Shown: positions 5,828 to 62,768 of the stretch, piece by piece
Layout: every line of letters begins with the position of its first letter
How positions within the stretch are numbered: the first letter of the stretch is position 1
Source of the DNA: Brachionus plicatilis
Lineage: Eukaryota > Rotifera > Eurotatoria > Ploima > Brachionidae
Assembly: GCA_010279815.1 (NCBI GenBank)
Contig: QEOQ01000238.1
Span: 355,062-419,061 of the forward strand
Direction: 5' to 3'
Length of the DNA: 64,000 bases
Program-made: the position numbers and the translations under genes
Notes under the pieces: model-generated
What the model saw: only the letters and a program-made list of their open reading frames with translations
What the model was told of the DNA's origin: nothing
The model's database searches: none

Positions 5828-6571
5828 CTAAAGGCCATGAATGTTATTTCTCATTTGATGAACAAAAATAGGCACCAAAATAATGTTCAAAATAACCATC
5901 AAAAAAATAGCACCCATCGGTACCAAAATCAAGCCTATCGAATATTCCTTTGTATTTTTGATCAAAAGGCTTAAACATCCTAGTTTTGGAGTTGGAACTT
6001 TGCAGCAATTTAGCCTGATTAACAAATTAAAATCACTTGGAGACATAATACCACAGCATTCGTTTTGTTTGGAAACTTGAAGCGATGAATTGCACTGCTT
6101 TTCTAAACTAAGCAACTCGGAAAAATTGAAAAAATCAACTTTGTTATTTGCATCTTCCAATGTTTTGTTTAATTCCTTTTGAAATTGGGACTCGATGGTG
6201 GGCCATGCTACCAAAATGGCTACTATTGCGCCTATATGAATCAAAAAAATTGAAATCACAATTATTTCCTGAATAATAAGCAAAATTCTATTTCTAGTCC
6301 AAACTGCATATAAGCCAAGAATTCCAACCAAAAAAACCACTAAGCCATAGACAATTAGAGAGATGGGGATGCCGTTTAGAACTATATTAAAATATTGTAT
6401 ATCTTTTATCTCATCTAGTGAGGATATGCTGATAATGTTGGCCCATCTGAGCACACATGTGGTCGTTATAAGGCCTAGTCCTAGGAGTATAAAAATAACA
6501 TTATTTATTAATAAAAAAATGCGTAGAATCTTATGGATTGTCTTGGAGGTAATCATATATATTTTTATCAT
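5828..6571 (-). CDS. Tetraspanin
   Basis: A single uninterrupted 247-residue frame starting at ATG (6571), with a second Met at residue 6. Four hydrophobic segments lie at about 14-40, 66-90, 97-122 and 211-236, with short cytosolic ends. The large extracellular loop (about 123-210) carries the family signature CCG (172-174), a second CC pair (189-190) and a further Cys (199), so two to three disulfides are expected. N-x-S/T sites occur in the loop (NKT at 135, NSS at 161). Tetraspanins organise membrane microdomains with integrins and other receptors. The length is normal for the family and the gene looks intact; the subfamily cannot be named from sequence alone. Confidence 0.92.
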   Translation of the reverse strand: MIKIYMITSKTIHKILRIFLLINNVIFILLGLGLITTTCVLRWANIISISSLDEIKDIQYFNIVLNGIPISLIVYGLVVFLVGILGLYAVWTRNRILLIIQEIIVISIFLIHIGAIVAILVAWPTIESQFQKELNKTLEDANNKVDFFNFSELLSLEKQCNSSLQVSKQNECCGIMSPSDFNLLIRLNCCKVPTPKLGCLSLLIKNTKEYSIGLILVPMGAIFLMVILNIILVPIFVHQMRNNIHGL

Positions 6572-9273: not shown

Positions 9274-9670
9274 AGTGTTGGGAACCGTACAAACGGCCAA
9301 AAATTTTTTGACCGCGAACAAGACCGCTTTGACGGACGTTTATAATGGCCGACGGCCACTTTGGCGGATAGACTGGCGGCCAAAAATTTGGACCGCGGAG
9401 TTGGCCGGCCAAATCATTGACAGGCCGCCCTTTTGGCGGCCAGACCGGCGGTCAAATTTTTGGACCGTATAAAGAATCGGTCAAAAAAAAAGGGGCGGTC
9501 AAATAACCGGCCAACTTTTTGGCAGGCAGACATTTTGCCGGTCAGCTTGGCGGCCTAATTTATAGACCGCCAAAATAAACGGTCTAAAATAAACGGTAGG
9601 CCAAAAAACCGGTAATAAAATAAAAAAATTAATATAATTTAAAATATGTTTTTTATTAATAATTTAATAA
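9274..9670 (-). repeat. Word-repeat element, copy B (GGCCGCC core)
   Basis: Starts with AGTGTTGG (9274-9281), the complement of the CCAACACT end of copies A and C. The 330-bp core is packed with GGCC, CCGG, GGCGG and CCGCC words in both orientations, giving a GC island in AT-rich DNA. It then enters the AT arm shared with 1-60 and 17923-17990 in reverse complement. It is inserted at the end of the Ty3/gypsy relic. Frames inside it are by-products of the word repeats, not genes. Confidence 0.75.
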
Positions 9671-13528: not shown

Positions 13529-15085
13529 ATTAAAACAGTATCAGGGGTAAGCCCTATTTAGGAAAAACGATTCAATGTATTAGTTTAGAAAATTAATTTA
13601 TTTTAATTTTAAGTAGGGTCTTATTTTTTTTTATTTCTTTACTTTAAAAAAAAATAATTAAACTTTAAAATTTCTATTTAATAAAATTAATTTGGAAAAA
13701 CATTTGCTTTATAAATCCTACTTAAAAAAAGAATGTATGTAGTCTAAGAACTAATTAAAATTAAAATCATAAATTATAAAAAATATTTATTAGTAAAAAT
13801 TTTGAATTTTACATCAGTTGGATTCCAGTGATATTTTAAATGTATTATTCAAACAATTTATTTATTTATTCACTTTCTCTAAAATTATACATTGAATACA
13901 AATTTTGACCATTTTTGAATAAATTAAAATTTATTTTTAAAATGTTTATTTTAAACTAAAAATGCTAAAACTAAATCATAAAATGTGTAAAAAATAAAAT
14001 CCAAAATTTAAATATTTTAAGTAATGCTCTTAATATGTAAAATATTATGAATATTATAATAAGATTTATTATATTAATATAATTTCATTATTTATGATTA
14101 TTTTTCCTTAAATAATGACTTTGATTAATTTAAATAGATGTCAAGGATCAAAAATTAATAGATTTGATTTAAAAATTATAAAACAAAAAAATCTATTGAA
14201 GGACTCGAAAAAAAAGAAAAGCATATGCAAATAGAAAGTCTAAATACCAATTTTACTCTCAAGACTGCACTTCATGCACTTCTGTTGCCTTTAAAATAGT
14301 CATTTCGGCTTAATCATTTTAGCAAAGATTTTTTATTAATAAATTATGTTTTTTTTTAAATAAAGTCCAGAAAGATTTTGTTTTTATGACGGAAATTTAA
14401 GGAATTCAATTTTGAATAACCATAATTTATTAATAGAAAAACTCAGCAAAAATAATTTAGCCTAGATGCCAATTTTACTCTCAATTTTAAAAATGAATGC
14501 AACGGAGTGCAATGAAGTTTAATCTGAAGAGGAAATTATAATAAAATATTTTTTAAGGGCCAAGGGAAAATAATTCTTCTATTGCGAACAAAAAAACAAA
14601 AAAAACTGAATTAGAAAATGCCTTAGAATTTAATTGTTTTAATTCAGAAAGTAAAATCAAATTTTTTCAAAGTTATAAACGCTTCCTTCTTTAGATGTGA
14701 CTCGAATTTAGATAAAATTTTTTAATAAGATTTTTGTAATTTTTTATCAAAACTTGCATTAAAAATAGAAATGTTTAGACTTTTTCCTAAGCTTAGAAAA
14801 AATCATAAGCTTAGTATTTAAATTCGCAATAGGTAAAGTAGATCAAAAAGTCTATTCAGAAAAACGTGTATTTAATGATTATGTAAAATTTTTCTTTTAC
14901 AAAAAGAGAAAGCTTTTAGAAAAATATAATCTAAAAAGCAATATAAAAAGCCATAAAATAAATTATGTTTTTTAAAAAGCGCAAATTTTATAAAAGAAGA
15001 AAGCTGTTTTTTATTAAAAAATTTTAAATATTCATTTTATTTTTTAAATTAAAAAAAAAATTTAATTCTAGATAAATTTACAATA

Positions 15086-16747
15086 ATGAGTAAATGCCCA
15101 TTAGGCTACTCTGCAGCTGACGCTGAAGCTTTTATTGCTAAGCATAAGGCATCGTCGAGCGGTGAAAGCAAGTGTCCACTCGGCTACACTTTGGCCGACT
15201 TGAGAAAATTCATTGATCAAGCAAAATCATCTGGTACGGGTAAATGCCCATTTGGATTTTCAGCAGAATCAGTGAAATCTGGCGAGTGTCCCCTCGGATA
15301 CAACAAGCAGTCACCTGAGTCTGGAAAGTGTCCTCTTGGATACGCCAAAGATTCTACTGGTTCGAGCAAATGTCCCCTAGGCTATGTCAAAGAGGCTACT
15401 CCTGCCGGCCAATGCCCACTCGGCTACACAAAGCCAACCGCAACCAGCTCTGATAAATGCCCGTTTGGATATGCAAAAAAATCTGGATGTCCTCTTGGTT
15501 TCTCTGATTCGGATGCTGATCAATTCATGTCCGAGAACAAGCCATCGGATGGATCGAGCAAATGTCCGCACAAATTTACAGTCGAGGACGTGCAGAAGTT
15601 TGTCACTGAGAAAAACACGTCCACCAAATGTCCTGAGGGATTTACCATGGCTGACTTTTACAGATTCATTTCCAGAAAGAAAGCCACCACTGGACTGAAG
15701 TGTTCATCTGACAAAGAGACCAAATGCCCACTTGGATATACCCATGCTGATCTAGAGGAGCTCAAAAATGAAAAAAAAAATTCAAGCACTAAATGTCCGC
15801 TTGGTTTTTGTCAAGCGGATGTCGAGGTTTTTGCAGCCACGCACAAACCGTCAGGCGGCCAAACCAAATGTCCAAAGGGATACACTGTGGAGGATTTTTT
15901 CAAATTTGTCCAAGATTTAAATGAAGCCAACAAATGTCCACTGGGATATTCCATAGCTGACTTGTTCAGATTTGTGGCAAAACAAAAGGAAGCGTCGGGC
16001 ACAGGCAAATGTCCACTTGGGTACATCAAAGTTGCCAATGAGTCCAAAGATTGTCCGCTTGGATTTAGCAAAGAGGCATCTGGAAGCAAGTGCCCGCTTG
16101 GCTACAGTCAAACTGAAGCCGACAAATTCATGGCTGACAATAAGCCATCAGGTGGCCACACAAAATGTCCTAAAGAGTACAATCAGAGAGATTTTAGCAA
16201 GTTTGTTTCAGGCAAAAAATCAAAATGTCCTCTTGGGTACACAGAAGTGGAAGCGGAAAAATTTATGTCGCATCACAAGCCATCTGGTGGCAACACAAAA
16301 TGTCCCAAAGAGTACAACTTGACTGATTTTGGAGAATATGCAAAGGAGAATAAGAATTTACATGCTCCTGCCAAGTGTCCGTTTGGCTATGCTAAAGAGG
16401 GATCTGATTCGAGCAAATGTCCTCTGGGATATACTGAAGCTCAAGCTGAAAAGTTTATGAATGATAATAAACCATCTGGTGGAGAAACTAAGTGTCCCAA
16501 GCAGTACAATTTGGCTGATTACAGAAAGTTTGTTGACAATGGAAGCAAATGTCCGCTTGGCTATTTCAAAAATGCACCGAGCATATGTCCACTAGGGTAT
16601 ACGGAAAAAGATGCGCTAGGGTTTATGTATGAATTTATAGCTGGGAATGCGGGAACCAAATGTCCGAAAGGATATAATTTCGATGAGTTCAGAAAATTTA
16701 TTGAAAGATCTGGAGGAGCAAAAAAATGTCCATTTGGATTTGGATAG
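15086..16747 (+). CDS. CPLGY-repeat protein, copy 1 (553 aa, family not recognised)
   Basis: An intact single-exon frame starts at ATG 15086 (MSKCPLGY). It is built of 28 Cys-Pro units, nearly all Lys-Cys-Pro, the fourth residue being L, F, K, E or H. Cysteines lie at 4, 30, 54, 68, 82, 96, 110, 125, 135, 160, 182, 214, 237, 262 and onward to 548, plus one degenerate unit KCSSD (206) and a lone Cys at about 242. Two unit sizes alternate. Long units (22-25 aa) continue as x-A-D-x-x-x-F-x plus a KPSGG linker. Short units (12-15 aa) lack that helix-like part. A recurring doublet is CPLGYTEAQAEKFM...KPSGG then KCPK-x-Y-N-x-x-D-F-x-K-F. There is no signal peptide or membrane segment, so it is probably cytosolic. 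AATAAA lies at 16835-16840. Function unknown; heme or metal binding is only a hypothesis. Confidence 0.9.
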   Translation: MSKCPLGYSAADAEAFIAKHKASSSGESKCPLGYTLADLRKFIDQAKSSGTGKCPFGFSAESVKSGECPLGYNKQSPESGKCPLGYAKDSTGSSKCPLGYVKEATPAGQCPLGYTKPTATSSDKCPFGYAKKSGCPLGFSDSDADQFMSENKPSDGSSKCPHKFTVEDVQKFVTEKNTSTKCPEGFTMADFYRFISRKKATTGLKCSSDKETKCPLGYTHADLEELKNEKKNSSTKCPLGFCQADVEVFAATHKPSGGQTKCPKGYTVEDFFKFVQDLNEANKCPLGYSIADLFRFVAKQKEASGTGKCPLGYIKVANESKDCPLGFSKEASGSKCPLGYSQTEADKFMADNKPSGGHTKCPKEYNQRDFSKFVSGKKSKCPLGYTEVEAEKFMSHHKPSGGNTKCPKEYNLTDFGEYAKENKNLHAPAKCPFGYAKEGSDSSKCPLGYTEAQAEKFMNDNKPSGGETKCPKQYNLADYRKFVDNGSKCPLGYFKNAPSICPLGYTEKDALGFMYEFIAGNAGTKCPKGYNFDEFRKFIERSGGAKKCPFGFG

Positions 16748-17059
16748 ACCAATTTCAGCAACAAGATCAATCTTTTTTGTTCTTAATTAATTCATTTAGC
16801 CATCAATCATAAACAACTAGCTCTTAATTTTACAAATAAATAGTTATTCGTTGTGTTTAATTTATTTTTTTTATTTTTTAAGAGTCTAGCTAAACAAAAT
16901 AATTTTAAAAAATATATTCCACTCTGGATAAGTGACCTAGTGAGCTAACTTTTGAATTTTGAATTTTGAATCTTTATTTCTGTTTAAAAAAAAAACATTA
17001 ATAACTTTTTGTTTTTGAAAGAGGTAAAATTTTGCTTAAAAGGAAATTTTTTTTTAGGA

Positions 17060-17385
17060 TAAAATTGTACCTAGAACTGGCCTCTGTTGTTTAAATTCAA
17101 ATGAGTCGATATTTCTATATAGAGACATACACAACTCCCTCAACGTCCCCCACTTCTGTCCTTACTGTACAAATTGTATCTTTTAACTTTTCTTATTGAG
17201 ATGCTATTGAACCAAGTCTCACTAACTGCTACAATTTGTGGACTTAATGTTACAAAAACAACACTGAATTCCTCTTATCTACTATCCAATGAACAAGGAA
17301 TTAAATGCATAATTTTAACGATTCAAGACTATCTAGGCGTAATGACGCTTCAGATGAACGATTATTTGATTTTTTAATTTATTAG
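17060..17385 (-). pseudogene. LINE endonuclease fossil 3' of CPLGY copy 1
   Basis: The minus strand reads SPQIVAVSETWFNSIS, then NLYSKDRSGGR, a stop (TGA), then GSCVCLYIEIST. This is the N-terminal APE-type endonuclease of a LINE ORF2 (I-V-A-V-S-E-T-W and R-G-G-x-V-x-I-Y-V motifs). The TGA sits where CGA (Arg) is expected. The same stop is present in the fossils beside the other two CPLGY copies. Confidence 0.8.
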
Positions 17386-17922: not shown

Positions 17923-18192
17923 AAAAAACAACTTTTTTAAATAATAAATATATTTTAAATTATATTAATTTTTTATTTTATTCCCGGTTTTTTGGCCGCC
18001 CGTATATTTTTGGCCGTTTAATTTGGCGGTCTAAAAATTAGGCCGCCAAGCTGACCGGCCAAATGGCCGCCCGTATATTTTTGGCCGTTTAATTTGGCGG
18101 TCTAAAAATTAGGCCGCCAAGCTGACCGGCAAAATGGCTGCAAAAAACCGTCCGTGTAATGGACCGGTTTGTCTTAGGCCGCATCCAACACT
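17923..18192 (+). repeat. Word-repeat element, copy C, with 71-bp tandem core
   Basis: The AT arm (17923-17990) is followed by two tandem 71-bp units starting GGCCGCCCGTATATTTTTGG (17994 and 18065), then CCGTCC/GGACCGG words, and it ends in CCAACACT (18185-18192). The same arm and terminus flank a GACTTTG core in copy A. It lies beside the LRR fragment and may have truncated that gene. Confidence 0.75.
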
Positions 18193-21401: not shown

Positions 21402-24003
21402 GTTAGGAGATAAATATTTTTTTTAGTGTATAATTTTATTTATAAAAAGGAGATAAAAAAATAAGTGGATAAATTATTTTTGTAGGAGATAAATATAAAC
21501 TAAAATTGATAATTATTTTCAAAGGTAGATAATTAATTTGTGAAGTAGATATTTATCATATAAGTGTTTATTTTTTGATTTTTGACAATTTGACTTAAAT
21601 GTATCAATTTCAATTAAATTAATTTCTTAATTGAGTAAATAATCAGCTTGTTACATAATTTATATAAAAATGAATTCCTTGAAACTGCTTGAAAATTAAA
21701 CTTTGAAATAAATAAAATTTTAACTTTAAATCTGATTAAAAAAAATGTCTGAAGCCTCTTCAACTTCTGTTCTTTTATCGGTCAATAATCAAGAAAATCA
21801 ACTTGATAATACTGATAATGATGTTGAAGAGATAGAGCAAGTGCAATCGAAACGTGGTTCAAACACAGTCTACGACGAATACGCAACTTATTCCAACTTT
21901 GCCGAATTTGTTGAATCACTTGAAGGTGGTCAGATCGACGGAAATAGATGGGCAAAAAAGGCAAAAAGAGTCACAAAAGAAGGTGAAAAGCAATTTTACA
22001 AATGTTCGTCGTGTTCCAAAAAAATGTTTTCGCTTAAGCTTCGCACAAGTCAAGACGTTAAAGTCTGTATTGAAGATTGTCTTCACTTGCATACCGACGG
22101 ACCATCAAAAGAATTTTGGGAAAAAAGCAAAAACCGAGTCGTAGAAATGTACCAAAAAGAGGGCAAAAAACCGAAAGAAATCTCGCGATGGTTACGTCTT
22201 CATTTATCGGAAGGCTTTGTAGAGATTTCACAAACTCAAATTACAAATCTCATCCAAAGAGTAAAAAAACATGATGAACCGACGATGACAGTTGAGATGC
22301 TGAAAAACTGGTGTGATTCACACAATGCGATCCCGGACGATCTTGACGAAGTTTTTGCGGTCTCGGAGTTCAAGATTACACCTGACGAGCTTACTTTCAA
22401 AATTTTTTTAACCACCAAACGCTTAATTTCTTTTACAACTAAGTGTAAACACATTGCAACAGACGCTACTTATAAGTTGCTGTGGTTGAATTTTCCGGTG
22501 TTATTGTGTGGGACAAATGACAGTGACAATACATTTCATCCGTTCGGCGTTTTATTGTCACGATACGAAACCGAGTCAGAATTCGCTTATATGTTTAGAA
22601 CTTGTAAGAACTTATCGTTCGAACTCTATGGACACGATTTGGATCCAAGTGTTTTATTAGCAGATGCAGCAGGCGCAATAACGAACGGTTTTAAATCAGT
22701 CTTTCGTCTCGAAAAACGAATTGTATGTTGGGCTCACGTTGAGAGAAAAATTGATGAAAACCTTAAAGGAGTCGACAAAGATTCAAAAGTTCAAATTAAG
22801 ACCGATTTCAAGTCGATTCAAGGCGGTGTTCAACAGCGGCTTTTTAGTACAGCGTTCGATCTTTTAGAGCAAAAGTGGTGCACGAGAAATGACGAAAACA
22901 TCAAGAAGTTTTTCGACTATTTCAAAACACAATGGATGAGCGAGTACACATTGGGCTGGTATGAAACTTACGCACATGGTTATCCAAGCACGAACAACGG
23001 TCTTGAGTCTACAAACAATACAATCAAAGATGAGGGTACCAATCGAGACAGATTAAGTTTGAACGACTTTATGAAAGCAATGAAAGATTTGCTGCAAAAA
23101 TGGTCACTTGATCGAGACACCGAGTTTGCGACAACGAAAAAATTCGAGTTAAGGCCGAAAATTTCAACACGTGAATGGACGTTTGGTTACAATTGGATCA
23201 AATTGAGAAAGCGAATAGTCAAGTATTCGCACGAAGATAAACAATTATACATGTGTACAACTTCCCAATCAACATCCGATATTACAAAGGCACAGTGCAA
23301 AGAGTTTTGGACAAAAGAAGACGGTTGGCAAGATTTTGACGAGTTGGTGGAATGGAGTAGTAAATTCATTGCAGTTAAAATCGATTCTGAGAATTGGGAA
23401 TCTAGCGCTTGCTCATGTCATTATTGGCAAAAAAATTTCAAATGTAAGCACACAATCGGAATTTCGCACTTTTTAAACCTGAACAAATTTCCGGGTTTAG
23501 ACTTAGCAATCGAAGGTAATGCAAAACGAGGTCGAAAAAAAAAGGCAAGAGCAGCATTAGAAAGAAATTCAATTGTTCCGATTAACAGGCAGATAGACAA
23601 TCTAAATCAACACGAAGTTCTACAAGAGGTTGCAAGTACGATTCAAATTGTAAATTATTCAATCGTTAATGTTTCTAATCAAAATCAACTTGTTTTGGCT
23701 TCAAGTTCAGTAGCAGTTCACGATCAAGTCGAAAATAATATTCAAGTTTCTGAGAAACGTAAACGCGGAAGACCAAAAAAATCAAGCAATGAAAACGAGC
23801 AATTGTCAAAAAGAGTAAGAAAATAAGTGTTAATTACTTTGTTTGTATTTTTTTTTTGTATTTTATTTTTGTAATTTTTTTTATTAATTGTCTCTTCTTA
23901 AAAAATAAATATATTCTGCAAAAAATGTTTATACACTTTTATTTTTTTTTTATCTACTTTTTATGAATTAAATTATACACTAAAAAAAATATTTACTCCT
24001 AAC
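21402..24003 (+). mobile_element. MULE transposon A, apparently complete
   Basis: Left TIR (21402-21470) and right TIR (23940-24003, complement) share GTTAGGAG, then TAAATATTTTTTTTAGTGTA and TTTATAAAAAG in the same order, with few mismatches over about 65 bp. Subterminal DNA on the left repeats GGAGATAAAT/GTAGATAA words down to 21580. One long transposase gene lies inside. I could not see a target duplication at these ends, so the outer limits may be a few bases off. It is the best candidate in the window for a recently active transposon. Confidence 0.85.
21745..23826 (+). CDS. MULE-type DDE transposase with SWIM finger (intact, 693 aa)
   Basis: One uninterrupted frame from ATG 21745. An N-terminal zinc-binding region has C87/C90 (YKCSSCSKK) and C112, H114, H116 (EDCLHLHTD). 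The DDE core shows D240 in ATDATYKL, D307 in LLADAAGAI and E421 in STNNGLESTNN, with the CWAH motif at 328-331. A SWIM zinc finger follows at 556-569 (C-S-C...C-K-H). Basic AT-hook-like tracts KRGRKKK (594-600) and KRKRGRPKK near the C-terminus suggest DNA binding and nuclear entry. The protein would cut and join the ends of its own element. All catalytic positions are present and no stop is seen. Relatives in the window (38065-41058, 60089-61215) are decayed. Codon use is somewhat less AT-extreme than the surroundings. Confidence 0.93.
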   Translation: MSEASSTSVLLSVNNQENQLDNTDNDVEEIEQVQSKRGSNTVYDEYATYSNFAEFVESLEGGQIDGNRWAKKAKRVTKEGEKQFYKCSSCSKKMFSLKLRTSQDVKVCIEDCLHLHTDGPSKEFWEKSKNRVVEMYQKEGKKPKEISRWLRLHLSEGFVEISQTQITNLIQRVKKHDEPTMTVEMLKNWCDSHNAIPDDLDEVFAVSEFKITPDELTFKIFLTTKRLISFTTKCKHIATDATYKLLWLNFPVLLCGTNDSDNTFHPFGVLLSRYETESEFAYMFRTCKNLSFELYGHDLDPSVLLADAAGAITNGFKSVFRLEKRIVCWAHVERKIDENLKGVDKDSKVQIKTDFKSIQGGVQQRLFSTAFDLLEQKWCTRNDENIKKFFDYFKTQWMSEYTLGWYETYAHGYPSTNNGLESTNNTIKDEGTNRDRLSLNDFMKAMKDLLQKWSLDRDTEFATTKKFELRPKISTREWTFGYNWIKLRKRIVKYSHEDKQLYMCTTSQSTSDITKAQCKEFWTKEDGWQDFDELVEWSSKFIAVKIDSENWESSACSCHYWQKNFKCKHTIGISHFLNLNKFPGLDLAIEGNAKRGRKKKARAALERNSIVPINRQIDNLNQHEVLQEVASTIQIVNYSIVNVSNQNQLVLASSSVAVHDQVENNIQVSEKRKRGRPKKSSNENEQLSKRVRK

Positions 24004-26342: not shown

Positions 26343-26660
26343 AGATCATAAAATTCAAAAATCAAATAATCGTTCATCTGAAGCGTCATTACGCCTAGAT
26401 AGTCTTGAATCGTTAAATTTATGCATTTAAATCCTTGTTTAAAGAGGAATTCAGTGTTGTTTTTGTAACATTAAGTCCACAAATTGTGGCAGTTAGTGAG
26501 ACTTGGTTCAAGAGCATCTCAATAAGAAAAGTTAAAAGATAAAATTTGTACAGTAAGGACAAGAGTGGGGGACGCTGAGGGAGTTGTGTATGTCTCTATA
26601 TTGAAATATCGACTCGTTTGAATTTAATCAACAGGGGCCAGTTCTAGGTACAATTTTATC
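26343..26660 (+). pseudogene. LINE endonuclease fossil 3' of CPLGY copy 2
   Basis: Plus-strand frame reads SSEASLRLDSLESLN, then SPQIVAVSETWFKSIS, then SGGR, a TGA and GSCVCLYIEIST. It carries a further TAA (KVKR-stop) that copy 1 lacks. It is the continuation of the ORF1-bearing LINE at 25150-25630 once the MITE is removed. Confidence 0.8.
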
Positions 26661-26965
26661 CTAAAATAAAAACTTCCTCTTAAACAAAATTGTACCTCTC
26701 TCAAAAACAAAAAATTATTAATGTTTTTTTTAAGCAAAAATAAATATTCAAAATTTTTTTGAGTTAGCTCACTAGGTCACTTATCCAGAGTGGAATATAT
26801 TTTTTAAAATTATTTTGTTTAGGTACACTCTTAAAAAAAAAAAAAAAAAATTAAACACAACGAATAACTATTTATTTGTCAAATTAAGAGCTAGTTGTTT
26901 ATGATTGATAGCTAAATTAATGAGTTATAAGAACAAAAATGATTAATCTTGTAGCTGATATTGGT

Positions 26966-28627
26966 CTATCCAAATCCAAATGGACATTTTTTTGCTCCTC
27001 CAGATCTTTCAATAAATTTTCTGAACTCATCGAAATTATATCCTTTCGGACATTTGGTTCCCGCATTCCCAGCTTTAAATTCATACATAAACCCTAGCGC
27101 ATCTTTTTCCGTATACCCTAGTGGACATATGCTCGGTGCATTTTTGAAATAGCCAAGCGGACATTTGCTTCCCTTGTCAACAAACTTTCTGTAATCAGCC
27201 AAATTGTACTGCTTGGGACACTTAGTTTCTCCACCAGATGGTTTATTATCATTCATAAACTTTTCAGCTTGAGCTTCAGTATATCCCAGAGGACATTTGC
27301 TCGAATCAGATCCCTCTTTAGCATAGCCAAACGGACACTTGGCAGGAGCATGTAAATTCTTATTCTCCTTTGCATATTCTCCAAAATCAGTCAAGTTGTA
27401 CTCTTTGGGACATTTTGTGTTGCCACCAGATGGCTTGTGATGCGACATAAATTTTTCCGCTTCCACTTCTGTGTACCCAAGAGGACATTTTGATTTTTTG
27501 CCTGAAACAAACTTGCTAAAATCTCTCTGATTGTACTCTTTAGGACATTTTGTGTGGCCACCTGATGGCTTATTGTCAGCCATGAATTTGTCGGCTTCAG
27601 TTTGACTGTAGCCAAGCGGGCACTTGCTTCCAGATGCCTCTTTGCTAAATCCAAGCGGACAATCTTTGGACTCATTGGCAACTTTGATGTACCCAAGTGG
27701 ACATTTGCCTGTGCCCGACGCTTCCTTTTGTTTTGCCACAAATCTGAACAAGTCAGCTATGGAATATCCCAGTGGACATTTGTTGGCTTCATTTAAATCT
27801 TGGACAAATTTGAAAAAATCCTCCACAGTGTATCCCTTTGGACATTTGGTTTGGCCGCCTGACGGTTTGTGCGTGGCTGCAAAAACCTCGACATCCGCTT
27901 GACAAAAACCAAGCGGACATTTAGTGCTTGAATTTTTTTTTTCATTTTTGAGCTCCTCTAGATCAGCATGGGTATATCCAAGTGGGCATTTGGTCTCTTT
28001 GTCAGATGAACACTTCAGTCCAGTGGTGGCTTTCTTTCTGGAAATGAATCTGTAAAAGTCAGCCATGGTAAATCCCTCAGGACATTTGGTGGACGTGTTT
28101 TTCTCAGTGACAAACTTCTGCACGTCCTCGACTGTAAATTTGTGCGGACATTTGCTCGATCCATCCGATGGCTTGTTCTCGGACATGAATTGATCAGCAT
28201 CCGAATCAGAGAAACCAAGAGGACATCCAGATTTTTTTGCATATCCAAACGGGCATTTATCAGAGCTGGTTGCGGTTGGCTTTGTGTAGCCGAGTGGGCA
28301 TTGGCCGGCAGGAGTAGCCTCTTTGACATAGCCTAGGGGACATTTGCTCGAACCAGTAGAATCTTTGGCGTATCCAAGAGGACACTTTCCAGACTCAGGT
28401 GACTGCTTGTTGTATCCGAGGGGACACTCGCCAGATTTCACTGATTCTGCTGAAAATCCAAATGGGCATTTACCCGTACCAGATGATTTTGCTTGATCAA
28501 TGAATTTTCTCAAGTCGGCCAAAGTGTAGCCGAGTGGACACTTGCTTTCACCGCTCGACGACCCCTTATGCTTAGCAATAAAAGCTTCAGCGTCAGCTGC
28601 AGAGTAGCCTAATGGGCATTTAGTCAT
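26966..28627 (-). CDS. CPLGY-repeat protein, copy 2 (553 aa)
   Basis: Intact frame from ATG 28627 (MTKCPLGY), chosen because the other two copies start at this position. An in-frame ATG at 28681 would add 18 residues (MFIYFNLKKN...), but that extension is absent from the other copies. Against copy 1 it has T for S at 2, G for A at 22, K for N at 485 and K for I at 517. All 28 Cys-Pro units, the KCSSD unit and the terminal KCPFGFG are retained. The gene is convergent with the LINE fossil at 26343-26660. The 3' flank has the same AATAAA as copy 1. Confidence 0.9.
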   Translation of the reverse strand: MTKCPLGYSAADAEAFIAKHKGSSSGESKCPLGYTLADLRKFIDQAKSSGTGKCPFGFSAESVKSGECPLGYNKQSPESGKCPLGYAKDSTGSSKCPLGYVKEATPAGQCPLGYTKPTATSSDKCPFGYAKKSGCPLGFSDSDADQFMSENKPSDGSSKCPHKFTVEDVQKFVTEKNTSTKCPEGFTMADFYRFISRKKATTGLKCSSDKETKCPLGYTHADLEELKNEKKNSSTKCPLGFCQADVEVFAATHKPSGGQTKCPKGYTVEDFFKFVQDLNEANKCPLGYSIADLFRFVAKQKEASGTGKCPLGYIKVANESKDCPLGFSKEASGSKCPLGYSQTEADKFMADNKPSGGHTKCPKEYNQRDFSKFVSGKKSKCPLGYTEVEAEKFMSHHKPSGGNTKCPKEYNLTDFGEYAKENKNLHAPAKCPFGYAKEGSDSSKCPLGYTEAQAEKFMNDNKPSGGETKCPKQYNLADYRKFVDKGSKCPLGYFKNAPSICPLGYTEKDALGFMYEFKAGNAGTKCPKGYNFDEFRKFIERSGGAKKCPFGFG

Positions 28628-29080
28628 TATTGTAAATTTATCTAGAATTAAATTTTTTTTTAAATTAAAATAAATGAACATTTAAAAATTTATTTATAAA
28701 AAACAGCTTTCTTCTTTTATAAAATTTTCGCTTTTTAAAAAACATAATTTATTTTATGGCTTTTTATATTGCTTTTTAGATTATATTTTTCCAAAAGCTT
28801 TCTCTTTATTTAAAACAAAAATTTTACATAAGCATCGATTTCACGTGTTTTTGAATAGACTTTTTGGACTACTTTACCTATTGCGAATTTAAATTCTTTA
28901 AGCTCAGTAACTTATTTCTAAGCTCAGGAAAAAGTCTTTACATTTCTATTTTTAATGCACGTTTTGATAAAAAATTACAAAAATCTTAGTTAAAATCTTA
29001 TCTAAATTCGAGTCACATCTAAAGAAGAAAGCGTTTAGAACTTTGAAAAAATTTGTTTTTACTCTCTGAATTAAAACAAT

Positions 29081-30290
29081 TATTTTCTAAGGCATTTTCT
29101 AATTCAAAATTTTTTTGTTTTTTTTTGTTTGCAATAGAAGAATTATTTTCCCTTAGCCCTTAAAAAATATTTTATTATAATTTCCTCTTCAGATTAAACT
29201 TCATTGCACTCCGTTGCATTCATTTTTAAAATTGAGAGTAAAATTGGCATCTAGGCTAAATTATTTTTGCAGAGTTTTTCTATTAATAAATTATGGTTAT
29301 TAAAAATTTAATTCCTTAAAAATCCGTCATAAAAAGAAAATCTCTTTGGACTTAATTTTTAAAAAAAACATAATTTATTAATAGAAAATCTTTGCTAAAA
29401 TAATTAAGTCGAAATGACAATATCAAAGGCAACAGAAGTGCAAAGAAGTGTAGTCTTGAGATTAAAATTGGTATTTAGACTTTCTTTATTAAAATATGCT
29501 TTTCTATTTTTTTGAGTCCTTCAATAGATTATTTTGTTTAATATTTTTTAATTCAAATCTATTAATTTTTGATCCTTGACTTCTATTTAAATTAATCCAA
29601 GTCATTATTTAAGAAAAAAAAATTTTATAAATTTTCGATATTGTATTAATATAAAAAATCTTATGATAATATTTTTGAAAAATTTGTTTTTTCTTTTACT
29701 TTAAAAAAATTATTTTCTAAGGCATTTTCTAATTCAAATTTTTTTTGCTCGCAATAGAAGAATTATTTTCACTTATCTTTTTGGAATATTTTATTATAAT
29801 TTACTCTCAATATTAAACTTCATTTCACTACGTTGCCTCTATTGTTATTTTGGTATTTTGGCTTAATTAAAATTCTCCTAAGATATTAAGTCATTAAAAA
29901 CCCTTTTCAAAAATTTCTTTTTTATGAATAAATTATGGCTTTTTAAATTAAATTGTGCTTTAAAAAAATGAAATTCACCAAATTTTCTTCATAAAAATAA
30001 ATGATTTTTAAGGCCTTTTTTGATGACTTAATATTTAAGAAGAATTTTTTTATTAAATTAAAGTTCTTCAACAGATTAATTTGTTTTTGAATTTTTAAAT
30101 CAATTTATTTTTATTTGATCAGTGAAATCTATTTAAATTAATCAAAGTCATTTAAGAAAAAAAAATTTAAGTATTGGAATTAAATTAATTAAATAATGTT
30201 TTGATAATTATTGTAATTTTTTACTTATTTTGAGCATTAATTAAAATATTCTAATTTCTGGATTTTATTTTTTAAATATATTTTAAGATT
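29081..30290 (-). repeat. Tandem pair of ~630-bp units upstream of CPLGY copy 2
   Basis: TATTTTCTAAGGCATTTTCT occurs at 29081 and 29711, and downstream landmarks follow in the same order: CAATAGAAGAATTATTTTC, TATTTTATTATAATTT, CTTCATT-CAC, and TTTAAATTAAT...GTCAT. The units have diverged, so the duplication is not recent. Copy 3 has the same doubling (47951 and 48573); copy 1 has one unit only. Confidence 0.8.
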
Positions 30291-30639: not shown

Positions 30640-33060
30640 TTAGAGAAAGTGCTTAAAAAAATAAACTGTTTGAATTTTATTGATTATAAAAAATTATAAA
30701 ATAATAATAAAAAAAAAATAATTATATATATAAATTACAACCAGACAAGTTGGTGGAGGTGGCCTACTTGGAGGTCACCTATGCTAGAAATACTGACAGA
30801 AGAAATACAGTTTAATCTTTAGGTCAAAATAAGAGTTAGAATGTTCACGATCTTGTCACCATCAGTGTGAAAGGCGCAATAATTCAAGATCGAAATACAA
30901 AGAGCTTAAGTGTTGGTATACGAATGCCATTTCACTCAGGAACAAATTGGACGAGCTAAAAGTTTTAAGCCATACTTACGAATATGATATTTTATTTGTG
31001 ACCGAGACGTAGTTTGATGAAGCGTCAGTAACTTATATAGAGGGCTATGAATGCTATCATAAGAACAGGCGAGCCAACAAGAGAGGTGGAGGGGTGTGTA
31101 TTTACGTAAAGAAAGATTTAAAAGTGGTTGAAGTTGATTTGGTATTAGATACTCATTTTTCGGTAGAGGAAGTTTGGTGTATATCAGAATGTGGAAGAGA
31201 ACGCCTTCTTATTGGTTGCATTTATTGTCCTTATATCAGTGGTTTGATTGATGAAGTAAGAGAAAGTTTGTTTTGTGCGAGGAAACTATTTGAATCAAAA
31301 AAGGTAAGTGGGCTTTTAATTTGTGGGGATTTTAATAGTCCAAATATTTGTTGGTATGAAAATGGAGAATGGAGTGTTGGTCAAAGTGCTAGGAAGGAAG
31401 AACTTGAGTTGGTTAATGCAATCGAAGATTGTTTTCTAATGCAAAATGTAGCCTGTCCAACTTTTCAGACAAACGAGTTTGGCAATAAGTCTATTTTGGA
31501 CTTGATTTTAACCGAGAGTGATGCGAGAGTAGCAAATTTGAGTACTGGCCCAGGTTTAAGTAATCTGGAGCGTTGCCATTTAAGCATAGCATGGAGTTAT
31601 TATTATTTAAATGAAGATGATGATGGAGAAGTTTTGTTTCACAGTGTTTTGTTTAATTACCGAAGAGGAAATTATTTTTTAATTTCTAAGTTTTTCAAAA
31701 GTATTGACTGGATTAGAAGTTTTAAGAACTTGAGTTTTAATGAAATGTACGAAGTTTTTCTCAGATTATATCAGTGTGCTTGTAAGATGTACATACCGAA
31801 ACGAATTGCTGGTCAAAATCGTAAAAAACAGCCGCCATGGATGAATAATGGAATCAAGAAGTTAATTAAAGAAAAGTATTATGAAGAAGCTAGTTGGCGG
31901 AAAAAGAAGTTTGAGGTGTAGTATTTTGGAAAATTTTCGGCGTGTTCGAAATCAAATTAAGCGTAAAATCAAATCGGCAGTTAGTGACTTTGAGGCACGA
32001 CTAGCAAAACATGCCAAACAGCCAAAAATGATTTTTAAGTATTTTTATGAAAAGCTAAATGTAAAGCCAGCAATTCACTCAATTAAACGGTCCGATGGTT
32101 CAATCACCAGCAATCTTGATGAGATAGTCAGAATTTTCAATGAGTTTTTTCATTCGGTTTTCAATAACAACGTTGATGAACCACCGAATTTTTTACATAG
32201 AAGTGAAAAAGTATGCGAGTTCAACATAAACACGGACATCTCGGACGCTGATTGTTTTGAGACACTTGAAAGGCTTAAATGTATCCAAAAGCACAGGTTT
32301 CGATGGTGTTAATCCTTACTTCTTGAAGATGACTGCGGATGCTATATGTGTTCCTTTATCACTATTAATGAAGAGTTCGTTGACAACAGGACAGGTCCCA
32401 GAGGTTTGGAAAAGAGCGTATGTGACTCCTATTTTTAAGAAAGGTGAAAGATGCAATGTTAACAACTACAAACCCGTGTCCATAACCTCAATAGTTTGTC
32501 GGATCACGGAAAGAATCATTCGGAAAGTCATAATTGATCATTTGACTCATAATAGATTGATCAGTACGTTTCAACACGGTTTTATGCCTAAGAGATCTTG
32601 TACCACAAATCTCTTGGAGAGTTTTGACTTGATAACAACGGAGCTTTCTAAGGGCAATAACATCGACATTGTGTATACTGACTTTTCGAAGGCGTTTGAT
32701 CGAGTAAATCATCATAAACTCCTCCACAAGTTGAAACATTATGGTATCAATGGTATTTTACACAGGTGGATTGAATCCTTTTTGATTGGTAGGAAGCAGC
32801 GTGTTGTTCTTGGTCATTCAGCATCTGAGTGGCTAGAAGTTACGAGTGGAGTTCCACAGGGTTCAGTCCTCGGTCCATTACTTATTGTGATTTTTATTAA
32901 TGACCTTCCCGAAAGATTCAAGAGCATATGCTCACTTTACGCAGACGATTGTAAGATCTATTGCGTCTTCAATAAAACCAATGAGTCCCAAAAAACTTCA
33001 GGCTGGATGGAGTCCTTTGTTGACACAGAAACTCCAATCTTGGGAACAGCTGATATCTTT
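30640..33060 (+). pseudogene. LINE B: 5' region, endonuclease and reverse transcriptase
   Basis: A 5' region (30640-30840, also at 49240-49470) precedes an APE endonuclease from about 30902. ILFVTET is followed by TAG at 31010 where Trp is expected, then RRANKRGGGVCIYV, LLICGDFNSPNICW and KSILDLILTES. Linker sequence runs to 31921. Two frameshifts (between 31881-31921 and 32257-32312) lead to the reverse transcriptase: STGFDGVNPYFLK, VYTDFSKAFDRVNHHKLL, GVPQGSVLGPLL and SLYADDCKIY, so both catalytic motifs survive. The frame stops making sense at about 33000, where a reverse-oriented endonuclease fossil begins. It is CR1/jockey-like, truncated in 3' and inactive. Confidence 0.88.
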
Positions 33061-33420
33061 GAAGTTGAAGTCTCAGGCTACTTGAATGCTTTTTGACGAC
33101 AATGAGCTGCATAGGAAGCTCGCATGGCCAAAGTCCCTGTTGATCTCAAAGTTGAGCTCACCAGCGGCGTTTGGCGGCCTATAGTTGCACCCATCAAGAA
33201 TATTTTCGTCGTTGATCTTGAAGTTACACCATATCTGCTCGCTCCCAGTGTTTCACAGGAATTCGTGGCTGATCTAGAACTCTTTACGTCACAGCGCATA
33301 TAAATAGCTTCACCGCTTTTCATGCAGTAGAGCTTATAGTTGTCCAGTTTGCAATATCTCAAGACGTTGAACCATGTCTTGGTGATGAGGATTGCTCGAG
33401 AGAAATTGTAAAAGCAGATA
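33000..33420 (-). pseudogene. LINE endonuclease fragment, opposite strand, abutting LINE B
   Basis: The minus strand contains, in shifting frames, YCKLDNYKLYC, GEAIYMRCDVKSS and then SEQIWCNFKI, LDGCNYRPPNAAGELNFEI. This corresponds to the G-Y-x-x-Y...G-G-V-x-I-Y-V and G-x-x-Y-R-P-P-N motifs of LINE endonucleases. Its G+C is visibly higher than LINE B. The head-to-head join with LINE B suggests a recombination or an inverted insertion. Confidence 0.65.
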
Positions 33421-45310: not shown

Positions 45311-45843
45311 TTATAAAGGAAATCTGATTATTTTTTTTCAATTTTTTTCTCAAATATAAGGTAAGTAAACAATCATAAACATGTAAAAATTTTATCATAA
45401 ACAATTTTAAAAATAAAAAATCCTATCAATAATGCTTTAAAATTAAAAATATACTCTTGATTAAAAGATTGGAAAAAATGTAACTAAAATAACAGGAAGC
45501 TTTAAACTTCAAAGATTAAATAACATATCCTAAAATAAAAAATTTCCTTGTGAGCAAAATTTTACCTCTTTCAAAAACAAAAAATTATAAATGTTCTTTT
45601 TTAAACAAAAATAAAGATTCAAAATTCAAAATTTTTTTGAATTAGCTCTCTTAGATCACTGGTCCAGAGTGGAATATATTTTTGAAAATTATTTTGTTTA
45701 GCTAGACTCTTAAAAAATAAAAAAAATAAATTAAACACAACGAATAACTATTTATTTGTAAAATTAAGAGCTAGTTGTTTATGATTGATGGCTAAATGAA
45801 TTAATTAAGAACAAAAAAGATTGATCTTGTTGCTGAAATTGGT

Positions 45844-47505
45844 CTATCCAAATCCAAATGGACATTTTTTTGCTCCTCCAGATCTTTCAATAAATTTTCT
45901 GAACTCATCGAAATTATATCCTTTCGGACATTTGGTTCCCGCATTCCCAGCTTTAAATTCATACATAAACCCTAGCGCATCTTTTTCCGTATACCCTAGT
46001 GGACACATGCTCGGTGCATTTTTGAAATAGCCAAGCGGACATTTGCTTCCATTGTCAACAAACTTTCTGTAATCAGCCAAATTGTACTGCTTGGGACACT
46101 TAGTTTCTCCACCAGATGGTTTATTATCATTCATAAACTTTTCAGCTTGAGCTTCAGTATATCCCAGAGGACATTTGCTCGAATCAGATCCCTCTTTAGC
46201 ATAGCCAAACGGACACTTGGCAGGAGCATGTAAATTCTTATTCTCCTTTGCATATTCTCCAAAATCAGTCAAGTTGTACTCTTTGGGACATTTTGTGTTG
46301 CCACCAGATGGCTTGTGATGCGACATAAATTTTTCCGCTTCCACTTCTGTGTACCCAAGAGGACATTTTGATTTTTTGCCTGAAACAAACTTGCTAAAAT
46401 CTCTCTGATTGTACTCTTTAGGACATTTTGTGTGGCCACCTGATGGCTTATTGTCAGCCATGAATTTGTCGGCTTCAGTTTGACTGTAGCCAAGCGGGCA
46501 CTTGCTTCCAGATGCCTCTTTGCTAAATCCAAGCGGACAATCTTTGGACTCATTGGCAACTTTGATGTACCCAAGTGGACATTTGCCTGTGCCCGACGCT
46601 TCCTTTTGTTTTGCCACAAATCTGAACAAGTCAGCTATGGAATATCCCAGTGGACATTTGTTGGCTTCATTTAAATCTTGGACAAATTTGAAAAAATCCT
46701 CCACAGTGTATCCCTTTGGACATTTGGTTTGGCCGCCTGACGGTTTGTGCGTGGCTGCAAAAACCTCGACATCCGCTTGACAAAAACCAAGCGGACATTT
46801 AGTGCTTGAATTTTTTTTTTCATTTTTGAGCTCCTCTAGATCAGCATGGGTATATCCAAGTGGGCATTTGGTCTCTTTGTCAGATGAACACTTCAGTCCA
46901 GTGGTGGCTTTCTTTCTGGCAATGAATCTGTAAAAGTCAGCCATGGTAAATCCCTCAGGACATTTGGTGGACGTGTTTTTCTCAGTGACAAACTTTTGCA
47001 CGTCCTCGACTGTAAATTTGTGCGGACATTTGCTCGATCCATCCGATGGCTTGTTCTCAGACATGAATTGATCAGCATCCGAATCAGAGAAACCAAGAGG
47101 ACATCCAGATTTTTTTGCATATCCAAACGGGCATTTATCAGAGCTGGTTGCAGTTGGCTTTGTGTAGCCGAGTGGGCATTGGCCGGCAGGAGTAGCCTCT
47201 TTGACATAGCCTAGGGGACATTTGCTCGAACCAGTAGAATCTTTGGCGTATCCAAGAGGACACTTTCCAGATTCAGGTGACTGCTTGTTGTATCCGAGGG
47301 GACACTCGCCAGATTTCACTGATTCTGCTGAAAATCCAAATGGGCATTTACCTGTACCAGATGATTTTGCTTGGTCAATGAATTTTCTCAAGTCGGCCAA
47401 AGTGTAGCCGAGTGGACACTTGCTTTCACCGCTCGACGATGCCTTATGCTTAGCAATAAAAGCTTCAGCGTCAGCTGCAGAGTAGCCTAATGGGCATTTA
47501 GTCAT
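45844..47505 (-). CDS. CPLGY-repeat protein, copy 3 (553 aa)
   Basis: Intact frame from ATG 47505 (MTKCPLGY). Differences from copy 2: A at 22 (copy 2 has G), A for S at 195, N for K at 485 and M for I at 500. At DNA level I count about a dozen substitutions over 1662 bp against copy 2, more than half synonymous, with no indel. All 28 Cys-Pro units and the KCSSD unit are kept. The frame is free of stops like the other two copies, so all three could be translated. Confidence 0.9.
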   Translation of the reverse strand: MTKCPLGYSAADAEAFIAKHKASSSGESKCPLGYTLADLRKFIDQAKSSGTGKCPFGFSAESVKSGECPLGYNKQSPESGKCPLGYAKDSTGSSKCPLGYVKEATPAGQCPLGYTKPTATSSDKCPFGYAKKSGCPLGFSDSDADQFMSENKPSDGSSKCPHKFTVEDVQKFVTEKNTSTKCPEGFTMADFYRFIARKKATTGLKCSSDKETKCPLGYTHADLEELKNEKKNSSTKCPLGFCQADVEVFAATHKPSGGQTKCPKGYTVEDFFKFVQDLNEANKCPLGYSIADLFRFVAKQKEASGTGKCPLGYIKVANESKDCPLGFSKEASGSKCPLGYSQTEADKFMADNKPSGGHTKCPKEYNQRDFSKFVSGKKSKCPLGYTEVEAEKFMSHHKPSGGNTKCPKEYNLTDFGEYAKENKNLHAPAKCPFGYAKEGSDSSKCPLGYTEAQAEKFMNDNKPSGGETKCPKQYNLADYRKFVDNGSKCPLGYFKNAPSMCPLGYTEKDALGFMYEFKAGNAGTKCPKGYNFDEFRKFIERSGGAKKCPFGFG

Positions 47506-47950
47506 TATTGTAAATTTATCTAGAATTAATTTTTTTTTAATTTAAAAAATAAAATGAATATTTAAAAATTTATTTATAAAAAATAGCTTTCTTCTTTTAT
47601 AAAATTTGCGCTCTTTAAAAAACATAATTTATTTTATTGCTTTTTAGATTATATTTTTTCTCAAAACTTTCTCTTTATGTACATCAAAAATTTTACATAA
47701 GCATCGATTTCACGTGTTTTTGAATAGACTTTTTAGTCTACTTTACCTTTTGCGAATTTAAATTCTTTGAGCTTAGTAACTTATTTCTAAGCTCAGGAAA
47801 AAGTCTTAACATTTCTATTTTTAATGCAAGTTTTGATAAAAAATCACAAAAATCTTATTAAAAAATTTTATCTAAATTCGAGTCACATCTAAAGAAGGAA
47901 GCGTTTATAACTTTGAAAAAATTTGATTTTACTTTCTGAATTAAAACAAT

Positions 47951-49100
47951 TATATTCTAAGGCATTTTCTAATTCAGTTTTTTTTGTTTTTTTGTTCGCA
48001 ATAGAAGAATTATTTTCCCTTGGCCCTTAAAAAATATTTTATTATAATTTCCTCTTCAGATTAAATTTCATTGCACTCCGTTGCATTCATTTTTAAAATT
48101 GAGAGTAAAATTGGCATCTAGGCTAAATTATTTTTGCTGAGTTTTTCTATTAATAAATTATGGTTATTCAAAATTGAATTCCTTAAAAATCCGTCATAAA
48201 AAGAAAATCTCTCTAGACTTTATTTAAAAAAAAAAAATAATTTATTAATAAAAAATCTTTGCTAAAATGATTAAGCCGAAATGACTATTTTAAAGGCAAC
48301 AGAAGTGCATGAAGTGTAGTCTTGAGAGTAAAATTGGTATTTAGACTTTCTATTTGCATATGCTTTTCTTTTTTTTCGAGTCCTTCAATAGATTTTTTTG
48401 TTTTATAATTTTTAAATCAAATCTATTAATTTTTGATCCTTGACATCTATTTAAATTAATCAAAGTCATTATTTAAGAAAAAAAAATTTTATAAATTTTC
48501 GATATCATATTAATATAAAAATCTTATGATAATATTTTTGAAAAATTTGTTTTTTCTTTTACTTTAAAAAAATTATTTTCTAAGGCATTTTCTAATTCAA
48601 ATTTTTTTTGCTCGCAATAGAAGAATTATTTTCACTTATCTTTTTGAAATATTTTATTATAATTTACTCTCAATATTAAACTTCATTTCACTACGTTGCC
48701 TCTATTGTTATTTTGGTATTTTGGCTTAATTAAAATTCTCTTAAGATATTAAGTCATTAAAAACCGTCTTCAAAAATTCCTTTTTTATGAATAAATTATG
48801 GCTTTTTAAATTAAATTTTGCTTTAAAAAAATGAAATTCACCAAATTTTCTTCATAAAAATAAATGATTTTTTAAGGCCTTTTTTGATGACTTAATATTT
48901 AATGAGAATTTTTTTATTAATTTAAGTTCTTCAACAGATTAATTTGTTTTTGAATTTTTAAATCTATTTATTTTTATTTGATCAGTGAAATCTATTTAAA
49001 TTAATCAAAGTCATTATTTAAGAAAAAAAAATTTAAGTATTGAAATTAAATTAATATAAAAAACCTAATGATAATTTTCATAATTTTTTACTCATTTTGA
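47951..49100 (-). repeat. Tandem pair of ~620-bp units upstream of CPLGY copy 3
   Basis: TAAGGCATTTTCTAATTCA recurs at about 47959 and 48581 with the same downstream landmarks as in copy 2. The unit nearer the gene is closer to the single unit of copy 1 than to its own tandem neighbour. Confidence 0.8.
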
Positions 49101-49239
49101 TTATTAATTAAGATTTTTAAATATTGTGATTTAATTTTTTACATCTTTCAGGATTTAGTTATAGCATTTTTATATTAAAATAAATATTTTAAAAATAAAT
49201 TTAATTTTATTATTAAAAATTTTCAAAAATTGAATTCAA

Positions 49240-62240: not shown

Positions 62241-62768
62241 ACGATGTGTAATGTTTACATTAGTACCCTTGGGCCCGTCTATCCGATCTCCCTCGTTAGA
62301 CGTATTGGAACATGTATTTATGCTCCTTCTTAACTTAAACCCTCATTGTTAAGTTAATTAACTTTCCAGTGATATCGACAAAGATGTCGCTATATCACAT
62401 CTTCCCCCGGTTTTATAAAGCGTAAGCTAGGGAACTGACGACCATTGTGACCACTTCCGGATCACCAATGACCGGGACCAGCCATAGACTATTATTTTTC
62501 CCAGGTACTAACTGACACTCGTCAGGTAGCCGTTGCACGCACTATAAACATTACTGCCTCCAAGAAGCACTTTTATTAGTCTTCTGGGGCTTTTATCCTC
62601 GTCGCCAGATGTAATATTTACATTAGTACCCTTGGGCCCGTCTATCCGATCTCCCTCGTTAGACGTATTGGAACATGTATTTACGCTCCTTCTTAACTTA
62701 AACCCTCATGGTTAAGTTAATTAACTTTCCAGTGATATCGACAAAGATGTCGCTATATCACAACGATG
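62241..62768. mobile_element. TRIM-like miniature LTR retrotransposon
   Basis: Two 153-bp direct repeats, 62247-62399 and 62610-62762, start TGTAAT and end ATCACA. They differ at only three positions. They enclose 210 bp of non-coding DNA (starts TCTTCCCCCGG). ACGATG occurs on both outer sides (62241-62246, 62763-62768), a 6-bp target duplication. TG...CA ends, paired LTRs and the tiny interior fit a terminal-repeat retrotransposon in miniature. No primer-binding site matching a tRNA was verified. It depends on another element's proteins. Confidence 0.92.

Follow-up and report, generated by a model that had tools for sequence, protein, structure and literature searches.

Three copies of a Cys-Pro repeat gene

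The window, that is, the whole 64-kb stretch of DNA analysed here, contains three copies of a gene for a protein composed almost entirely of Cys-Pro (CP) modules (Table 1). The open reading frame (ORF) of copy 1 runs from ATG to TAG. Its extent and its 28 modules were exactly as an earlier note on this DNA had described them. Among 20,000 shuffles of the copy 1 protein, the mean number of CP was 2.1 and the maximum was nine. At the DNA level, the pattern coding for CP[L/F]GY occurred 48 times in the window, compared with 0.01 times expected from shuffles. The listed ORF of copy 2 runs to 28681, with its ATG 18 codons further upstream. All 553 codons are open in each copy. The earlier note had counted three copies. 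Three full-length copies were found in the window, and a whole-protein search of the genome (102.9 Mb, 173 contigs) returned the same three places only.

Table 1. Positions of the CP genes, of their duplicated blocks, of signal-like sequences near copy 1 and of the heme lyase gene (positions are those of the window except in the last line)
Feature	Position	Strand	Description
Copy 1	15086..16747	+	553-aa protein, 28 Cys-Pro modules
Copy 2	26966..28627	-	Same protein, 553 aa counted from the ATG of MTKCPLGY
Copy 3	45844..47505	-	Same protein, 553 aa
Duplicated block with copy 1	14050..17380	+	95.0% to 29673-26351
Duplicated block with copy 2	26351..30277	-	26657-30277 matches the copy-3 block, 95.1%
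Duplicated block with copy 3	45526..49144	-	
TATA-box-like TATAAAAG	14989..14996	+	97 bases upstream of the copy 1 ATG
Splice-acceptor-like TTCTAG	15066..15071	+	After a T/A-rich run, just before the ATG; identical in the three copies
Polyadenylation-signal-like AATAAA	16835..16840	+	Conserved in all three copies
Cytochrome c heme lyase (HCCS) gene, same genome	L030:1483-2259		Single-frame, 258 aa; PF01265, E 1.2e-63

The TATA-like box is also present 94 bases before the ATG of copy 2 and 96 bases before that of copy 3. Apart from this box, no clear regulatory motif was seen upstream of the CP genes. The bdelloid spliced leader gave no match, from which nothing firm follows. A stretch of about 180 bases is repeated upstream of the CP genes (14488-14671, 29042-29228, 29674-29847, 47912-48095 and 48537-48710), occurring twice in the blocks of copies 2 and 3 (79-80% between the repeats).

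Other ORFs of the window include a single-frame tetraspanin (PF00335) at 5828-6571 on the minus strand and a 502-aa protein at 922-2430, also on the minus strand, which looks like a seven-helix receptor by eye and had no Pfam match. A 693-aa ORF with a MULE transposase domain (PF10551) lies at 21745-23826 on the plus strand. LINE-like-looking ORFs occupy 31439-33096 on the same strand, with a reverse transcriptase (PF00078) at 32329-33096. Tandem repeats of 102-base and 71-base periods with GGCCG-type units were found at 9405-9612 and 17993-18138; they are richer in GC in an AT-rich genome, and 9525-9657 matches 18071-17940 at 89%. A direct repeat of 153 bases is present at 62247-62399 and 62610-62762 (98% identical).

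Near-identity of the coding regions

The match between the copy-1 block and the copy-3 block spans 14050-17061 (96.6%). The coding regions of copies 1 and 2 differ at 5 of 1662 bases, those of copies 1 and 3 at 10 and those of copies 2 and 3 at 11 (0.3-0.7%). Comparatively, the 5′ flanks differ among the copies at 82/1031, 53/1022 and 68/1026 positions (5-8%), and this contrast suggests gene conversion. We compared silent changes with flank changes for two pairs of copies. Silent changes were rarer between copies 1 and 2 (1/373 sites vs 122/1643, P = 2e-10) and between copies 1 and 3 (6/373 vs 113/1524, P = 4e-6), although the gap is overstated for the latter pair because its 3′ flank was counted beyond the end of the duplicate (17061). 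Judging from these patterns, gene conversion over the coding region would be the simplest cause of the near-identical copies. Selection on silent sites is an alternative that may also account for the scarcity of silent changes.

Between copies, dS was 0.003-0.019 and dN 0.003. The dN/dS ratios were 1.16, 0.19 and 0.16, all on very few changes. Twelve residues vary between the copies and the B. plicatilis proteins described below, none of them at CP, which is compatible with chance; this count leaves out the divergent tail of one of these proteins (P0002), which is without the last CP.

Make-up of the modules

Cysteine accounts for 5.4% of the copy 1 protein (30 residues), and 28 of the 30 are in Cys-Pro. 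The single Cys per module stated in the earlier note holds for these 28; Cys206 and Cys242 lie outside CP. Its cysteine content was right, and the even spacing it had reported can be refined: the modules are bimodal in length, with 11 short ones (10-15 aa) and 17 long ones (19-32 aa) in which a helix segment follows the head. The commonest CP-CP spacings are 25 (8/27) and 14 (6/27).

The residue before the module Cys is Lys in 23/28. At +2 we found L in 17 modules, K in five, F in four, and H and E in one each, i.e. L or F in 21/28. Gly is at +3 in 24/28 modules, and +4 is always aromatic (21 Y and 7 F). The long modules share the consensus CP-x-x-[YF]-[TSN]-x-x-[DE]-x-x-x-F, with Phe at +12 in 15/17, and a strict N-cap box, [STN]-x-x-[DE], comes right after CPxx[YF] in 15 of the 28 modules. 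The protein is repetitive and rich in K, G and S. Around CP, 27 of 28 nine-residue windows have a charge that is not negative; positive local charge is weakly enriched there (18/28 vs 250/545 windows), and the significance is marginal (P = 0.05).

The 28 modules had been counted by cutting at CP, so we also sought modules by using neither C nor P. CP was in place at 17/17 helix boxes and at 24/25 G[YF]. The Pro codons of the modules are not uniform: all four are in use, and 75% of the 378 module pairs have different third bases there, so the modules are no recent copies of one another. In the rotifer array, Cys-Pro and the remainder of the module thus go together.

Neither CxxC nor CxC occurs in copy 1, where the smallest gap between Cys is 5 residues. 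This supports the view, already put forward in the earlier note, that one Cys per module speaks against classic disulfide or zinc-knuckle domains. Zinc knuckles and metallothioneins were rejected on the same grounds. The protein also has no hydrophobic N-terminal stretch (the best 19-residue Kyte-Doolittle mean is 0.25 in the first 40 aa of copy 1), in agreement with the lack of a signal peptide noticed before. A secreted peptide was rejected accordingly.

Family and structure searches

No credible family match for the CP protein was found in Pfam, and a PDB sequence search gave no match. The only Pfam row above its cut-off was RuvA_C (PF07499; 35.9 bits vs a cut-off of 24), which we rejected. 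Its score adds up over the repeats: no single stretch passes, and its best piece covers 14 residues. The remaining Pfam rows, AdoMetDC_leader, DUF188 and UBX among them, were short or repeat-summed matches, and neither PF01265 nor EGF gave a row. Hence no strong match to a named family emerged from these searches, in line with the first impression that the protein belongs to no known family.

An AlphaFold2 model of a module doublet (45 aa), built on an alignment of seven natural doublets, has helices at 8-17 and 33-43 and places both CPs in loops (mean pLDDT 65). It agrees with the helix-like segment that had been suspected in the long form, and the long module is predicted to be a loop followed by an N-capped helix. 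A fold search of the PDB with this model returned six matches, none significant (best E 3.9), and a single-sequence model of the full-length protein was unusable (pLDDT 36).

In the open literature, the string CPLGY turned up in three papers, whose titles and abstracts concern neither rotifers nor heme. Among the papers listed on Cys-Pro heme motifs, titles and the starts of abstracts likewise mentioned no such array. The family of CP modules is unnamed, while the kind of motif is already known.

Relatives of the array

We searched for relatives with a 154-aa query at E up to 10, and three proteins, all with the same modules, were found among 65 candidates. P0002 is the B. plicatilis hypothetical protein BpHYR1_017154, 96% over 91% of the query. 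It is partial, and from aa 548 onwards, at the last module, its tail departs from the array. P0003 is the B. plicatilis hypothetical protein BpHYR1_043538, also partial, and differs from copy 3 at 2/77 aa. Judging from these matches, the genome probably belongs to B. plicatilis or a close relative. P0004, an unnamed ENA protein of 245 aa, is a distant relative (31% identity, E 5.6e-7) and also a CP array. It has 11 CP, a tail rich in E and N, and five Cys outside CP, but no helix box. CP is present at 7/11 of its G[YF], and three of its modules lost the Pro and kept LG[YF] (CTLGY, YALGF and CVLGF), one of them having lost the Cys too. The sequence of P0004 suggests that the tie between Cys-Pro and module is looser there than in the rotifer array. 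P0004 carries the clusters CPFGKCPKAAQC and CPLGKCPKAAQC, with Cys gaps of 4, 5 and 6.

A search with the full-length protein gave nothing at E 0.001, P0002-P0004 being shorter than the length limit of that search. No relative was confirmed in viral and prokaryote contigs. With a 95-aa query and E up to 10, the genome yielded 23 rows, 22 of them in the three CP genes. The stray one (E 0.38, contig C34) was dropped, as no ORF of at least 200 aa with a start codon was found there.

The three genes account for 48 of the 79 genome-wide occurrences of the CP[L/F]GY-coding pattern, which leaves 31 in other places; the reversed control gave 15. Among eight translated stretches around stray occurrences, four hold the string in an open frame of at least 40 aa; three of these are Cys-rich and look EGF-like by eye, and one, of 50 aa, is of no clear kind. 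The C-P-x-G-Y/F string is common in EGF-like domains, and CPLGY/CPFGY is what they share with the array. EGF-like domains have several Cys per domain, unlike the array. An EGF-like origin was rejected because of the one Cys per module and the absence of CxC, and the EGF-like-looking CPLGY genes sit elsewhere in the genome.

Heme-related genes in the same genome and a further CP protein

The N-terminus of HCCS contains CPIQH, CPMHQ and CPIKH, spaced 25 and 15, which resembles the commonest spacings of the array. It differs from the array in that three motifs stand ahead of a PF01265 domain, two of the three are CP-I-x-H with His at +4, and the residue before Cys is E or G rather than K.

A further protein, P0005, is an unnamed metagenome protein that came up as a weak match of P0004 (E 1.3). 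It contains KCPFAH, KCPVDH, KCPVDH and RCPFGY with spacings of 20, 44 and 25. Thus, CPFGY stands among CPVDH motifs within one natural array. P0005 presumably resembles the N-terminus of heme lyase. It had no match to PF01265 and none to this genome, and that it is a heme protein is a guess.

ALAD and ferrochelatase are present in the genome, and heme auxotrophy is therefore not supported as a context. The ALAS search gave an ambiguous outcome, with none of its 10 matches passing the cut-off. A six-frame search of the genome, whose controls were prokaryotic only, turned up no heme oxygenase. The presence of ALAD and ferrochelatase and the missing match to heme oxygenase make a weak context for a reading that involves heme.

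Possible heme binding by the CP protein

The head of the modules resembles the heme-regulatory motif (HRM), [K/R]-C-P-hydrophobic. Like the known HRM proteins (Hap1 with HRM1-7, ALAS, HO-2 and Bach1), the array has a K/R-C-P-hydrophobic head, several motifs per chain and one Cys per site. It differs from them in that 28 motifs make up nearly the whole protein, with Gly at +3 and Tyr or Phe at +4; a helix segment follows 17 of the 28 motifs and no other domain was found. The full Hap1 motif carries a His at +4, a position that is Tyr or Phe in the array. The heme motif of HAP1 is given as K/R-C-P-V/I in an excerpt of PMC9491583. Seven modules with K, H or E at +2 and the absence of His at +4 count against heme.

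From this resemblance we infer that the CP protein may be a soluble, Lys-rich, probably cytoplasmic, stand-alone buffer with many heme-thiolate sites, and we give this interpretation, the leading one, a probability of roughly one in three. The CP motifs of the animal's own HCCS, the mixed array of P0005 and the mostly non-negative charge around CP also speak for it. In each module a surface loop kinked by proline, K-C-P-[L/F]-G-[Y/F], would expose a single Cys thiolate. Packing against the porphyrin would fall to the Leu or Phe at +2 and the Tyr or Phe at +4, and in the long modules the N-capped helix would hold the loop. Many weak (micromolar) and independent sites on one chain would then act in heme buffering or storage, or in delivery to apo-proteins, and not in heme sensing.

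Passages from work on CP peptides are consistent with several of these steps. Cys-Pro motifs are described as lying mostly in loops that join two helices (PMC10377097), and the doublet model, at its mean pLDDT of 65, would likewise place each CP in a loop ahead of a helix. According to parts of three papers (PMC5758875, PMC10377097, PMC6356037), the affinity of CP peptides for heme is in the micromolar range; positive charge favours the binding and negative charge inhibits it. One Cys per module would suffice, because the heme complexes of such peptides are reported in the same parts to be mostly penta-coordinated, with or without His/Tyr. Among Cys-Pro heme motifs, which the earlier note did not consider, sites with a single Cys are the norm, and the clustering of thiolates across modules that it had envisaged would not be needed. 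In Hap1, as stated in a passage of PMC5758875, six clustered CP motifs bind heme strongly and have no role in regulation, which is therefore a precedent for heme binding without sensing.

A CP motif by itself is no proof of heme binding. In Hap1 and Bach1 some CP motifs matter and not all (PMC5758875, in part), and in Hhy1 one CP motif is dispensable, while a CPC motif is needed for full heme binding (PMC13135908, in part). The passages found in PMC11727520 contain nothing on CP motifs.

Alternative interpretations

The protein could also be a multivalent docking scaffold, in which the C-P-x-G-Y/F head, together with the helix in the long modules, binds many copies of one partner and the Cys is kept for packing. 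Conservation reaches +3, +4, the N-cap box and Phe +12, which is beyond what a ligand alone would need, and in six places a K- or H-type module comes after an L-type one. The three P0004 modules in which LG[YF] outlasts CP weaken the heme interpretation and favour docking. However, CP is kept at nearly every module of the rotifer array that was sought without C or P, and the doublet model is without a match among solved folds. We regard a docking scaffold as possible, though rather unlikely.

A structural role, likewise on the unlikely side, would be that of a cytoplasmic protein cross-linked by disulfide or isopeptide bonds, e.g. in the intracytoplasmic lamina or lorica of rotifers. Spread-out reactive Cys and many Lys would form a network, as in cornified envelopes. 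The repetitive, K/G/S-rich and Cys-rich composition without a signal-peptide-like stretch fits this role, and three near-identical copies would suit a product needed at high dosage. In Brachionus the lamina is a disulfide-linked, keratin-like material. An electron-dense intracytoplasmic lamina was seen in the epidermis of one rotifer, Asplanchnopus, as a passage of PMC13403294 describes, and a limited search of the open literature offered nothing on the proteins of the rotifer lamina. By itself, a structural role requires neither the Pro after Cys nor the G-Y/F next to it, and the genome has ordinary intermediate-filament genes (6/7 matches over the cut-off). Metallothioneins and cornified-envelope proteins such as loricrin are Cys-rich, cytoplasmic and repetitive like the array; the array differs from them in having no CxC or CxxC, in not being dominated by Gly or Gln, and in the Pro after the module Cys.

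Binding of soft metals such as Cu(I), Zn or Cd by thiolates, in the manner of a metallothionein, is improbable. Each chain offers 30 thiols and Cys is denser in P0004, but the array lacks closely paired Cys altogether, and metal-response cores (TGCRCNC) number 1, 1 and 2, as raw counts, in the 1.1 kb upstream of the three copies. That the array is no working gene but a drifting repeat or a passenger of mobile elements, as the transposase and reverse transcriptase nearby and the dN/dS ratios on so few changes might suggest, is very improbable in view of the open frames in three copies, the Cys-Pro that stays tied to modules with differing Pro codons, and the homologues among B. plicatilis proteins and in a more distant relative.

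Implications

The storage and movement of labile heme in animal cells are poorly understood. We consider it doubtful, though conceivable from the sequence, that the CP protein is a 28-site heme sponge, i.e. an animal protein made solely of heme-binding motifs that evolved by repeating Cys-Pro. A soluble protein consisting solely of candidate heme motifs would lend itself readily to titration, mutagenesis and use as a scaffold for heme sensors. If the heme sponge is real, it would give metazoa a dedicated multi-site intracellular store or carrier of heme. If heme is not the ligand, the CP genes are still an unnamed, constrained and triplicated repeat family of rotifers.
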